NCBI GenBank assembly: GCA_027619975.1 | Contig: JAQCGX010000022.1 | Span: 1 to 54,080, forward strand | Source: Nitrospinota bacterium | GTDB lineage: Bacteria; Nitrospinota; Nitrospinia; Nitrospinales; VA-1 | Direction of reading: 5' to 3' | DNA length: 54,080 nt | Shown: one piece after another, positions 21,577-52,126 of the stretch | How positions within the stretch are numbered: the first letter of the stretch is position 1 | Layout: every line of letters begins with the position of its first letter | Program-made: the position numbers and the translations under genes | The notes under the pieces: generated by a model | Told to the model about the DNA's origin: nothing | Seen by the model: only the letters and a program-made list of their open reading frames with translations | The model's database searches: none

Positions 21577-22665
21577 TCAGCGTCCAGGCTCTTCCTGCAG
21601 TCGGCTTTTTCCCATTTTCAATAATTCTTCTATGGATTCGAGAACCGTATCCGGTGTCAGCGAATCGTTGAATCTTTCTTCCAGAATAATGCTCGGCGTA
21701 TTATACGGCCCCCAGCGGGCGATTTCCCCATGTTTAAATATCGCCAGGACAGGGGTGTTGACGGCAGACGCCAGATGCATGATTCCCGTGTGGTTGCAAA
21801 ACAGAAGATCGCTTTTTTGTATCAGCAATGCCAGTTCCATGATGGATAGGGGTGGAAGTCGCACAGGCGGGCGCTCCATACTGCTCATGAAATCATCGGT
21901 CATATTTTCTTCACCGGGGCCGCTGATTAGAAAAACCTCTGCGGCTTCCGTATCGATGAGTTGTTCTGCCACCTTTTGAAATTTTTCCAATCGCCATCCC
22001 CATTCGGGGACGCGGGTTCCGGGTTTGATGAGGATCAACGGGCGGTCGGGATGCTTGCGCTTTGCATTCAGTAAAGCATCAATGGTTTGCTCTTCCTGCG
22101 CATTGAAAAAAAGTTGCGGCGCGGGGTGGATTATTGGCAATCCCACGGTTTTTAACAGTTCAAGATTATTTTCGACTTCATGCCGGGGGTTGTTGTCGAT
22201 GGGCACTTGCACGTCGACCATCCACGCGTTTTGCGGATTTTGATATCCGACCCGGCAGGCCGCTCCTGACAACAGGGTGAGAACGGCGGCGGTGGCGCTG
22301 AAAGTTTTATTGAGAGTGAACGCCAGGTCGTATTTCCCCCGGCGCAAGGCTCTAAATATTTTCCAGGGCCGCTTGGAGTCCCACTCCAGAACCGCATCGA
22401 CATTGGGGTTATTGGCCAAAAGTCCAGCGTTGGACTGGTCCACCAGAACGGTCACCTTTACTCCAGGGATGGATGCTTTAATGGATGCGTAGACTGGTGT
22501 TGAAAGCACCACGTCCCCCAGCCGATCGGGGCGCACCACCAGCACGGATTTTATCTTCGCCAGATCGACGGAAAGTCCGGGTTTCCTTTTAGAGAAAAAC
22601 AATCCCGGAGCCTCCCACAAGATATTTTTGGCGACCTTTTCCAGTCTTCTTAAATTGAGACCCAT
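21577..22665 (-). CDS. Glycosyltransferase family 9 (heptosyltransferase-like)
   Basis: A 362-residue GT-B fold enzyme of the ADP-heptose:LPS heptosyltransferase family. The N-terminal VLVVRPDRLGDVVLSTPV (about 41-58) is the family signature. The C-terminal half has the donor-binding LIKPGTRVPEWGW, the SGPGEE loop and LLFCNHTGIMHLASAVNTPVLAIF. It probably transfers a heptose to the LPS inner core or a related envelope glycan. A second GT9 gene and a PAP2 phosphatase lie just upstream in the same direction. The acceptor and exact donor cannot be deduced. Confidence 0.9.
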   Translation of the reverse strand: MGLNLRRLEKVAKNILWEAPGLFFSKRKPGLSVDLAKIKSVLVVRPDRLGDVVLSTPVYASIKASIPGVKVTVLVDQSNAGLLANNPNVDAVLEWDSKRPWKIFRALRRGKYDLAFTLNKTFSATAAVLTLLSGAACRVGYQNPQNAWMVDVQVPIDNNPRHEVENNLELLKTVGLPIIHPAPQLFFNAQEEQTIDALLNAKRKHPDRPLILIKPGTRVPEWGWRLEKFQKVAEQLIDTEAAEVFLISGPGEENMTDDFMSSMERPPVRLPPLSIMELALLIQKSDLLFCNHTGIMHLASAVNTPVLAIFKHGEIARWGPYNTPSIILEERFNDSLTPDTVLESIEELLKMGKSRLQEEPGR

Positions 22666-22910: not shown

Positions 22911-23996
22911 TTAGTTAACTTCGGGAGCCGCCACGTTTACAAATTTGGCGACACTGCTCTTGACCGTTTCAAAGACCTCATCGACTTCGATTTGTTGCAT
23001 GCAGTCATGCGTCTGAATGCGGCACACTTTCTTCCAGCAAAAACTGCACGGCAGGGTCTTAACGACCACTTGATGATTGGGCCCATAAGGTCCGTTGCGT
23101 GTTGGGTCCGTGGGTCCGAAAATGGAAACCGTGGGAATGCCCATTGCCGCCGCCAGATGCAACGGGCCGGAATCGCAACTGATCATCAAAGCCGCATGAC
23201 GAAATAGAACGATGGACTCCTGAATGGATGTCTTAGGAGCGATCCAGAATTTTTGCTGCATCTGATCGGCAATCTGTTCCGCCATGCCTTTTTCTCCTGG
23301 ACCCCAGCCCAGCAATATAGAAAGCCCCAGCTCTTCAGCCACGCGGTCCGCCAGTTTTGCGAACCGTTCCAGTTTCCAGAGCTTGGTTGGAAAACCCGCC
23401 CCAGGGTTTATGATGGCTATGGGTTTCGCCGAGATTTCAGGATTCTCCTGGAAAAACAGGTCCACAGGGAGGCTGGTACCCTCAGGAACGTCCAGAGGGT
23501 GGGTTTGCAGCGCTTGCTGGTTGTCTCCCAGTAATCGAATCAGGTTCAGGTAAATGTCCACCACGTGGTTTCTCGGACCGATAAAAGCGGCTCTCCTATT
23601 GGTGAAAAGTGCGTTCAACGGCTCCTTACAGTTTTTCCGGTTGAGGCCCAGGCGCTGGCGTGCGCCAGAGAGGCGGGCAATCAACCCCGTTTTTATCAAC
23701 CCTTGCAGGTCCAGCGCCACATCAAACCTGCGTTTCCTCAATAGAGAAACCGTTGCCCAAATTTCGCCCAGCGTTTTTAAAGTCCAGTTTTTACGCCAGC
23801 GCCGGGTGCGGATGACGATGATTTCATCCAGATCCGGGTTATTATATAGAAGATCCTGGTAGGGCGCCTCCACCAGCCAGGCAATATACGAATGCGGATG
23901 ATTGGCGCGAAGCGTTCGCAAGGCGGGCAAGGCGTGCACGACATCGCCCAATGAACTCACCTTGATGAATAAAAATTTTTTACGGGGATCTGCCAT
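22911..23996 (-). CDS. Glycosyltransferase family 9, heptosyltransferase II/WaaF-like
   Basis: A second ADP-heptose transferase of about 361 residues. It has FLFIKVSSLGDVVHALPALRTLRA at the N terminus, and in the C-terminal half GAGFPTKLWKLERFA, GWGPGEKGMAEQI and SCDSGPLHLAAAMGIPTVSIFGPTDPTRNGPYG, the standard heptosyltransferase donor site. Six codons upstream a TTG (24014) overlaps the stop of the PAP2 gene by 4 bases (TTGA) and could also be used; the ATG at 23996 (MADPRKKFLFIKV) is the conservative choice. It probably adds a heptose to the LPS core. The WaaC/WaaF/WaaQ subtype is not certain. Confidence 0.9.
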   Translation of the reverse strand: MADPRKKFLFIKVSSLGDVVHALPALRTLRANHPHSYIAWLVEAPYQDLLYNNPDLDEIIVIRTRRWRKNWTLKTLGEIWATVSLLRKRRFDVALDLQGLIKTGLIARLSGARQRLGLNRKNCKEPLNALFTNRRAAFIGPRNHVVDIYLNLIRLLGDNQQALQTHPLDVPEGTSLPVDLFFQENPEISAKPIAIINPGAGFPTKLWKLERFAKLADRVAEELGLSILLGWGPGEKGMAEQIADQMQQKFWIAPKTSIQESIVLFRHAALMISCDSGPLHLAAAMGIPTVSIFGPTDPTRNGPYGPNHQVVVKTLPCSFCWKKVCRIQTHDCMQQIEVDEVFETVKSSVAKFVNVAAPEVN

Positions 23997-24010: not shown

Positions 24011-24550
24011 TCAAGCCTTTAAGAATTTGCGAAACTTTTTGTACAGTTTATACCCCAGGACACCCATTCCGATACCCAAAAGGGCTCCGCCTAAGACATC
24101 GAAAGGGTAGTGGACTCCCAGGTAAACTCTGGAATAGCACACCAGGATGGCGAATGTATAGGCCAAAAAGGCCAGGTTTTTGAAGCAAAGGCTCAGCACA
24201 GTTGCCACAGTGAACATATTGCTGGCGTGGTTGGATGGAAAGGAAAAGCTGTTGGAGCAATTGGTGATGTGCTGTAAATCGGGTAGTGTGTGGCAGGGGC
24301 GAGGCCGCGCCACAAGCTCTTTGATAAAATTGTGACTGATGAAATCATTCAACCCCACCATGATTCCCCCCGCCAGCAGGCAGGCGAGCCCTCGTAATCG
24401 ATAGACCCAGAGCAAAAGGATAACTGCAATCGCTCCGGGGATAATAAAATTTTGTTTGATAGAGATGAATGACATAAACTTCTCTATCATCGGATTTTGG
24501 AAATGCGAATTGACCCAGTAGAATAGATTCTTGTCCCAATCGGATAAAAT
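24011..24550 (-). CDS. PAP2-family membrane phosphatase, probable ATT start
   Basis: Type 2 phosphatidic-acid phosphatase family: membrane enzymes acting on lipid (di)phosphates such as undecaprenyl-PP or lipid A phosphates. The three signature motifs are visible: KELVARPRP, PSNHAS and SRVYLGVHYPFDVLGG. The first ATG (24490) would begin inside a conserved helix, because the codons before it encode LSDWDKNLFYWVNSHFQNP, typical of the family N terminus. The upstream frame has no ATG, GTG, TTG or CTG before a TAA. An AGGAGG Shine-Dalgarno (24557-24562) sits 6 bases before an ATT codon at 24550, so I place the start there (179 residues). It heads the PAP2-GT9-Trm112-GT9 operon. Confidence 0.8.
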   Translation of the reverse strand: MLSDWDKNLFYWVNSHFQNPMIEKFMSFISIKQNFIIPGAIAVILLLWVYRLRGLACLLAGGIMVGLNDFISHNFIKELVARPRPCHTLPDLQHITNCSNSFSFPSNHASNMFTVATVLSLCFKNLAFLAYTFAILVCYSRVYLGVHYPFDVLGGALLGIGMGVLGYKLYKKFRKFLKA

Positions 24551-24690
24551 GATGCGCCTCCTTCGGACTTAATTGATAAAACGGACCTAAATATTATGGG
24601 GTTTGTGAAAGCGAGTCAAACTCTTTGTCGGTCACTAAATATTTGAAATGAAGAAGGCATCAGTGAATTGCCAGGGGATTTACTTTTAAA

Positions 24691-25389
24691 ATGACAAAAA
24701 CGCAAACAAAAGTTATCATCCTTTTCGCCAGGGACCCGGTGGTGGGGCAGGTGAAAACCCGTCTTCATCCCTTCCTGAGCGAGGAGTCGATTTTTGAACT
24801 CTACACCCATTTTTTGCACGACAGTATCCAGAAAATCGGGCGCGTGAAATCCGCAGACCGTTTCATAGGTGTAACTCCTGCCGATGCTTCTGGTTTTTTT
24901 TCCCGTTTGAAAGATGAGTGCGCTTTGGAGATATTTTCCCAGGTAGGTAATGACCTGGGAGAAAAAATGGCCAATGCTTTTCAAGCGCGATTTGCGGAAG
25001 GATACGAGCGGGTGGTCATCATCGGTTCAGACAGCCCGTCTTTGCCGGTAGATTACATTGAACAGGCATTGAGTTCGGAAAAGGATTTGACGATCGGCCC
25101 GAGCACCGATGGTGGTTATTATCTGATAGGCATGTCAGGGAAGCTGGTGAATGTTTTTGAGGATGTTGCCTGGGGATCGGATGCGGTATTGGCGCAAACG
25201 CTGGAGCGTGTTAAAAAATCCGGCTGTTCGCTGGAACTGCTTCCTCCCTGGTACGATGTGGACCGTCCTGAAGATTTAAAGTTTTTGCAGACGCACCTGG
25301 AACTGATAGAGCAATCGGGACAGGAAAGTACCGGGGGAACCGGTGAATTTTTAAAAAGCTTGGATATACAACTCAATGAAAATTTATAA
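24691..25389 (+). CDS. TIGR04282-type glycosyltransferase (DUF2064)
   Basis: A GT-A-like nucleotide-sugar transferase of the TIGR04282/DUF2064 group. Diagnostic are the N-terminal VIILFARDPVVGQVKTRLHP (about 8-27), GNDLGEKMANAF, the metal-binding-like VVIIGSDSPSLP, IGPSTDGGYYLIG and the C-terminal WYDVDRPEDLKFL. Length 232 is slightly above average because of an S/G/E-rich tail. The last 14 bases overlap hisD, so the two are cotranscribed. The substrate is unknown; family members often sit near genes for cell-surface or cofactor glycosylation. The start at ATG 24691 follows a loose CAGGGGA motif. Confidence 0.85.
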   Translation: MTKTQTKVIILFARDPVVGQVKTRLHPFLSEESIFELYTHFLHDSIQKIGRVKSADRFIGVTPADASGFFSRLKDECALEIFSQVGNDLGEKMANAFQARFAEGYERVVIIGSDSPSLPVDYIEQALSSEKDLTIGPSTDGGYYLIGMSGKLVNVFEDVAWGSDAVLAQTLERVKKSGCSLELLPPWYDVDRPEDLKFLQTHLELIEQSGQESTGGTGEFLKSLDIQLNENL

Positions 25390-51675: not shown

Positions 51676-52053
51676 TTAACTTTCTGCGATGGCTTGAGCT
51701 ATGGCGTAATTGTTGTCATGCGACAGGGAAATATGGATGGTTTTGATTTCTAATTGCTTCGCTATTTCTTTCCCTTTTCCGGACAAAGTTACCAGAGGTT
51801 TTCCGGTTTTCGTATTGGTGACCTCAATGTCCTTGAAAGATACTTCCTGGTCCATTCCTGTTCCCAGACATTTCATCACGGCTTCCTTGGCGGCAAAACG
51901 GGCGGCAAAATGGATGCTGGGTTCGGCCCTCGCTTGACAATAAAGGATTTCGTTCGCTGTGAAAATCTTTTCTTCAAACCGGGTCGCATATTTTTCCAGG
52001 GACTTTTTTATTCGGGCCACTTCGACGATGTCTACTCCTGTTCCGATGATCAT
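51676..52053 (-). CDS. acpS: Holo-[acyl-carrier-protein] synthase
   Basis: 4'-phosphopantetheinyl transferase that charges ACP. A short (125-residue) family member with Mg-binding D8 in GVDIVEVARI and E57 in RFAAKEAVMKCLGTG, and the ending HISLSHDNNYAIAQAI. It is in the same direction as the upstream tsaC and purE genes but 73 bases away. Confidence 0.96.
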   Translation of the reverse strand: MIIGTGVDIVEVARIKKSLEKYATRFEEKIFTANEILYCQARAEPSIHFAARFAAKEAVMKCLGTGMDQEVSFKDIEVTNTKTGKPLVTLSGKGKEIAKQLEIKTIHISLSHDNNYAIAQAIAES

Positions 52054-52126
52054 AAAAGGTTCCGGGTATCAAAGAGAATCTGAGAAAATCGTATTATTGC
52101 AAATCCAGTGAACTGAAACCAATCCT

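Follow-up and report, generated by a model that had tools for sequence, protein, structure and literature searches.

The PAP2 phosphatase gene studied here, whose frame offers no usual start codon from the upstream TAA up to codon 20, raises the question of where its translation begins, and of what a start other than ATG would mean for the heptosyltransferase-like gene that follows it. The window, that is, the whole stretch of 54,080 nucleotides that was analysed, is contig G000:C22 from a genome bin of 2.9 Mb, and the closest named relatives of this genome are Nitrospinaceae MAGs with a protein identity of 72–73%. The features of the locus are the following.

24011..24550, minus strand: PAP2 phosphatase gene, 179 codons, assigned start ATT at 24550–24548 (Pfam PAP2; homologues)
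24557..24563, minus strand: Shine-Dalgarno sequence (SD) AAGGAGG of PAP2, 6 nt before the ATT, conserved in homologues
22911..23996, minus strand: GT9a, heptosyltransferase I-like (TIGR02193, 197.7 bits; cut-off 185.3)
21577..22665, minus strand: GT9b, second GT9 glycosyltransferase (Pfam PF01075, 105.3 bits)
24691..25389, plus strand: DUF2064 gene, divergent from PAP2 (TIGR04282, 188.5 bits; cut-off 134)
24591..24619, minus strand: candidate sigma-70 promoter of the PAP2-GT9 genes, TTGACT-17-TAATAT (promoter scan; homologues)
24488..24532, minus strand: PAP2 codons 6–20, with nucleotide-level (synonymous) constraint (same-codon ratio)
24497..24524, plus strand: candidate opposite-strand promoter TTGGAA-16-TAGAAT, inside PAP2 and pointing to DUF2064 (promoter scan)

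GT9b scores under every NCBIfam cut-off. DUF2064 is a conserved neighbour of PAP2 in the order, and hisD lies downstream of it on the plus strand, the two genes overlapping.

Start Region of the PAP2 Gene in the Window

The PAP2 frame runs from the TAA at 24571–24569 through GTC CGA AGG AGG CGC ATC ATT TTA TCC GAT TGG to a TGA at 24013–24011. A preliminary description of this DNA had stated that no ATG, GTG, TTG or CTG occurs between the TAA and the ATT at 24550–24548, that AGGAGG stands 6 bases before this ATT, and that the N-terminal sequence of the family is encoded ahead of the first ATG. All three statements were borne out when the frame was read again: none of the four codons is present in that interval, the AGGAGG at 24562–24557, which is part of an AAGGAGG at 24563–24557, ends 6 nt ahead of the ATT, and LFYWVNSHFQNP is encoded before the earliest downstream ATG, at 24490 (codon 20).

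An SD followed by ATH (ATT, ATC or ATA; AUH likewise at the RNA level) is by itself common by chance and uninformative, AAGGAGG-N6-ATH occurring at 27 sites in the window genome versus 18 for the reversed pattern; it is the conservation of the arrangement that exceeds chance. Among 45 frames of the window, taken from a greedy rough list that is not a gene annotation, PAP2 is alone in having ATH behind a 7-nt SD and no usual start in the vicinity; a single further frame (51676–52068) has ATC after a 5-nt SD, and this one contains an ATG as well. Taken alone, the window makes a start at the adjacent ATC (24553–24551) possible. This candidate was rejected on comparison with relatives, which conserve the ATT column and not the ATC column; the latter has ATC or ATT in genus g1 and in a small number of others, its remaining entries being GCT, ACC, CCC, GTC, TTC and similar.

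Start Codon in Related Genomes

Searches of the phylum and of the class returned the same 77 genomes. The PAP2 gene is present in 55 of the 64 genomes of the order, and its start could be read at 54 loci of 53 genomes, G041 and G054 having a PAP2 match with no readable start. The ATT proposed as the start in the preliminary description is upheld by the alignment of these homologues: the start is ATH at 44 of the 54 loci (43 of the 53 genomes), as ATC in 22, ATT in 21 and ATA in one. ATG is found at the other ten, which belong to genus g3 (three), g13 (one) and g14/g16 (six). Among ten genomes from outside the order in which the start can be read, three (families f6 and f8) begin PAP2 with ATT and the other seven with ATG or GTG. 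The ATG and GTG loci indicate that an ATH start is not essential. More distant PAP2 genes (L156 of G072, L157 and L158) were excluded from these counts, and L159 (G059) is cut. In G029 (L031) both ATC at −1 and ATT at +1 are possible starts; it was counted as ATC in the start and SD counts and entered as ATT in the tree described below.

A sequencing or assembly error hiding a true ATG, the main doubt raised in the preliminary description, could account for one genome by a single-base difference, and is refuted, at a negligible residual probability, by the independent occurrence of ATT, ATC or ATA at the same position within and outside the order, in separate assemblies of which two are single contigs (G005 and G037).

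At 39 of the 44 ATH loci no in-frame ATG, GTG or TTG lies between the upstream stop (or contig edge) and the start, and at the remaining five (G005, G008, G011, G013 and G027) the upstream ATG, GTG or TTG is at least 12 codons away. Of the 44 order loci without ATG, 43 have an SD match of 4 nt or longer, and 37 one of 5 nt or longer, at proper spacing ahead of the ATH; for random codons of the same genes, taken as a control, the corresponding numbers are 74 and 19 of 880. Genus g6 lacks one codon behind the start, and its ATH stands one codon nearer to the conserved Asp; the start there is still ATC or ATA, and the former start column has become ACC, ACT or GCC. The ATH codon has thus moved with the start, holding its place as a start and not as an isoleucine of a fixed column.

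Neighbouring genes at the same loci have normal starts throughout (DUF2064 53/53, GT9a 51/51, hisD 42/42). In the same genomes infC starts with ATT, ATC or ATA in all 28 readable loci out of 30, L061 and L062 having been missed by the start motif. An initiator-type tRNA anticodon loop, GGGCTCATAACCC (CAT), was found in 15 of 15 genomes, so that no changed initiator is needed; among seven loci scanned with ARAGORN five were called, all CAT and all tRNA-Met. An altered initiator tRNA was rejected as a candidate, since only CAT loops were found besides one GGGCTAATAACCC in G039, for which ARAGORN gave no tRNA.

A tree of 62 PAP2 loci, calculated from codon 27 on and without L035, L047, L048 and L049, required at least nine changes among ATT, ATC and ATA and six between ATH and NTG; many forks of this quickly made tree are weak, and gain and loss are indistinguishable in it. 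As judged from the aligned sequences, the start is kept non-AUG across the whole order, drifting within AUH and going to AUG in a few lineages. This order-wide conservation, of which the preliminary description had no knowledge, suggests that PAP2 output is held low by start-codon proofreading. In the window itself, PAP2 is very probably translated from the ATT at 24550.

The gene can be lost, since G003, which is 96% complete and of the same genus as the window genome, has no PAP2 orthologue at E ≤ 1e-15. In genome G026 two contigs (L024 and L038) each carry PAP2 and contain N letters, which points to either two copies or a mixed assembly.

The PAP2 Protein and Its N-Terminal Helix

The motifs of the PAP2 superfamily are K-x6-RP, PSxH and SRx5Hx3D. 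The protein encoded from the ATT scores 93.4 bits with Pfam PF01569 (PAP2; cut-off 27.2), and K77, R84-P85, P105-S106-H108, R141, H147 and D151 are invariant in 20 aligned PAP2 rows. Its AlphaFold2 model (mean pLDDT 91.6) aligned with LpxE (6ebu) over residues 2–169 (Z 19.2, rmsd 2.6 Å, 159 residues aligned) and with Bacillus subtilis PgpB (5jki) over residues 1–175 (Z 17.1). It therefore has the fold of LpxE, a fold that is common to other PAP2 enzymes. As both structural alignments begin at residues 1–2, the first helix (residues 2–16) is part of the enzyme, and gene callers restricted to ATG, GTG and TTG will trim it away.

The NCBIfam cut-offs for the undecaprenyl-diphosphatase SepP (76 bits; cut-off 250), PRK11837 (57.2 bits; cut-off 229) and the PgpB equivalog (29.4 bits; cut-off 261) were not reached. 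With a heptosyltransferase I following it, PAP2 is likely to be an envelope lipid phosphatase, with a putative LpxE-like or undecaprenyl-diphosphate phosphatase activity. It shares with the LpxE and undecaprenyl-diphosphate phosphatases the motifs and the fold that are common to PAP2, and differs from them in scoring below all the NCBIfam equivalog cut-offs.

The structural comparison bears on another start, at the downstream ATG (codon 20 in the window, 25 in most relatives), in which case residues 1–24 would be conserved through a promoter on the opposite strand. Met25 is indeed ATG in 46 of 53 aligned loci, and the most conserved part of the protein (LFYWIN.HFQ) coincides in part with the DNA element described in the next section. 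However, 4 of 43 loci show an SD match of 4 nt or longer at Met25, and none one of 5 nt or longer, compared with the 43 of 44 for ATH. Genus g3 has lost the DNA element, yet the protein stretch is retained there, with an ATG shortly before it, and element-free relatives outside the order begin with ATG or GTG at the same place and keep the sequence of the N-terminal helix. Beginning at codon 25 would moreover delete the first helix of the fold. A start at 24490, which the preliminary description had named as the alternative, is thus very improbable, the downstream Met almost never having an SD and the helix of residues 2–16 aligning with the LpxE N-terminus.

Nucleotide Constraint in Codons 6–20

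The same-codon ratio relates the pairs with the same amino acid that also have the same codon to their expectation. Calculated for 53 aligned genes (including L103 from outside the order and without L035, L047, L048 and L049), it reaches up to 1.72 in windows of PAP2 codons 6–20, against 0.84–1.15 in the rest of the gene, from codon 20 on. No such peak is seen in DUF2064, GT9a and hisD, where the ratio is at most 1.22. On the other strand the constrained bases read TTGAAA or TTGCAA, 16 nt and TAGAAT in most loci, and the promoter scan located the 24497..24524 site of the window unprompted, with a predicted RNA start at about 24531. Relative to this promoter the constraint, which the preliminary description does not mention, spans about −44 to +1. 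It is reasonably probable from these sequences that codons 6–20 carry a promoter aimed at DUF2064-hisD.

In three genus mates this promoter is weaker, with 7 of 12 consensus bases in G002 and in G001 and 8 of 12 in G004. A synonymous-shuffle test on 50 loci, after five and those with N had been dropped, gave no more than a suggestion (median p 0.08; p below 0.05 at 18 of the 50). Given also that the spacer is constrained, the promoter by itself may be too simple a view, and an operator or another DNA site in codons 6–20 is possible. No regulon of the element was found in 21 genomes, one site per genome being the rule (one in 15 genomes, two in G042, none in five). A small antisense ORF (ATG...TAG opposite codons 8–15) was rejected as a candidate: in G002 a TGA comes right after the ATG, and the stop is not kept.

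The constraint might instead belong to an element of the PAP2 mRNA which aids AUU initiation or binds a regulator, and not to a DUF2064 promoter. Such an element would fit the position of the constrained codons, right behind the AUU, and the constraint on third bases of the spacer (codons 12, 14 and 15), needless for a bare promoter. On the other hand, no conserved fold was obtained (RNAalifold −0.23 versus −0.05 for shuffled columns, z −0.68) and Rfam gave no match of note, the ATG lineages g13 and g14 keep the element, and the conserved bases spell TTG(A/C)AA-16-TAGAAT on the opposite strand, over just the extent given above. An mRNA element is therefore a rather unlikely explanation, and the opposite-strand promoter, with or without a further DNA site, is preferred.

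The promoter of the PAP2-GT9 genes has its predicted RNA start at about 24584. Its form in homologues is TTGACT-17-TAAAAT or a near variant, mostly placed at −66 to −76, and almost every ATH locus has kept it. Both it and the inner promoter are sequence predictions and are presumed to be active; they face each other, and the SD and the AUU would lie in a stretch of about 54 nt shared by the two predicted leaders. Nearly all ATH loci have both, and in g3 the AUH start and the two promoters have gone together. The ATG lineages g13 and g14/g16 retain the inner promoter, so that the link between the element and the ATH start is not a strict one. If the inner promoter is real, it would be a case of one short stretch constrained simultaneously by the protein, by the start codon and by transcription of the opposite strand.

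At the three g3 loci (L009, L010 and L014), with their ATG start and no recognisable promoter of either kind, the divergent DUF2064-hisD pair is nevertheless kept.

Translation of GT9a

The ATG of GT9a (23996–23994) lies 14 nt past the PAP2 stop and has no SD of its own. At the 45 unfused loci listed, GT9a starts near or within the PAP2 stop, and an SD of at least 4 nt at any candidate start was found only at L006, L010 and L088. Because GT9a almost never has an SD of its own, it is probably translated by coupling to PAP2. The preliminary description had suggested that both GT9 genes may be affected by the weak start; this is strengthened by the position of the GT9a start and by its almost always missing SD. 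In g14/g16 (L090, L091, L092, L093, L101 and L102) PAP2 and the heptosyltransferase are fused into one frame that spans about 540 codons and starts with ATG. The lineages that have gone to ATG, one of them with this fused protein, are natural controls.

Proposed Mechanism

Our main reading, to which we give a probability of about 0.8, is that a conserved IF3-sensitive non-AUG start keeps PAP2 and, by coupling, the heptosyltransferase low. Its starting points are read directly in the genomes: the start position and its conservation, the lack of other starts, the SD, the missing SD of GT9a and the nucleotide constraint. Translation of PAP2 would begin at the AUU at 24550, where the strong SD (AAGGAGG) would hold the mRNA and fMet-tRNA(CAU) would pair with two of the three bases. 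By analogy with infC, IF3 would reject most of these complexes, and PAP2 output would be low and dependent on IF3; that the start is IF3-sensitive, as the preliminary description had proposed, appears quite likely. With GT9a translated by coupling, the weak start would determine how much of either protein is made. The non-AUG start would be under selection, drifting among AUU, AUC and AUA, with AUG only in g3, g13 and g14/g16, where in g14/g16 the move to AUG would have come together with the PAP2-GT9 fusion. The first 20 codons would separately hold the promoter for DUF2064-hisD on the other strand. An AUH start kept in at least 43 species would be good comparative evidence of selection on the output of a weak start.

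A rival explanation is that the non-AUG start gives merely a constitutive low translation, the level of IF3 never varying enough to matter. Low output alone would suffice for a membrane lipid phosphatase, and a limiting AUU start is reportedly the reading given by Binns and Masters in 2002 for translation of Escherichia coli pcnB. The sequences offer no argument against it; infC also starts with ATH in the same genomes, so that feedback by IF3 probably exists there. We consider purely constitutive low translation a serious alternative with somewhat less than an even chance, and retain the IF3-sensitive start as the main reading.

A wider proposal is that the output of PAP2 and the heptosyltransferase is governed throughout the order by a switch in which proofreading by IF3, interference between the promoters and antisense pairing with the leader of DUF2064-hisD act jointly; this is speculative and rather improbable. 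If true, a switch in the start region would tie the modification of envelope lipids to the translational state.

Comparison with Known Systems

To our knowledge, few bacterial genes besides infC keep an AUU, AUC or AUA start. A literature search that covered only a minority of subscription papers yielded no account of a non-AUG start for a PAP2 gene or for a Nitrospina gene. PAP2 is a deeply conserved addition to the small class of AUH-start genes represented by infC, pcnB, sigR and ccpN/cvfC1, and comparison of conserved AUH starts is a way to find more such genes.

Like PAP2, infC has in the same genomes a conserved AUH start with a strong SD, presumed to be IF3-sensitive; the two differ in that infC regulates IF3 itself through a feedback loop, whereas no role of PAP2 in translation is apparent. 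E. coli pcnB resembles PAP2 in having an AUU start on a gene that does not encode an initiation factor, and the proteins are unrelated. The overlapping divergent transcripts of excludons may have a counterpart here, in the leaders of two facing promoters that are both conserved sequence predictions.

According to PMC5472188, IF3 represses the non-canonical starts of E. coli infC and Streptomyces sigR. As described there, sigR has, like PAP2, a non-canonical start with an extended SD, conserved within a genus; it is repressed by IF3, as proposed for PAP2, and has a further promoter inside the coding region, as predicted for PAP2. It differs in the codon, GTC or GTT, and in the direction of the internal promoter, which runs the same way as the gene, to rsrA. 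In Staphylococcus aureus reporters, AUU and AUA starts with an extended SD gave about 10–30% of the AUG level, as reported in PMC13009471. The S. aureus genes ccpN (AUA) and cvfC1 (AUU) described in the same text have, like PAP2, a conserved AUH start with an extended SD, cvfC1 being conserved among Staphylococci and ccpN between S. aureus and B. subtilis; their proteins differ from PAP2, and cvfC1, like PAP2, heads an operon.
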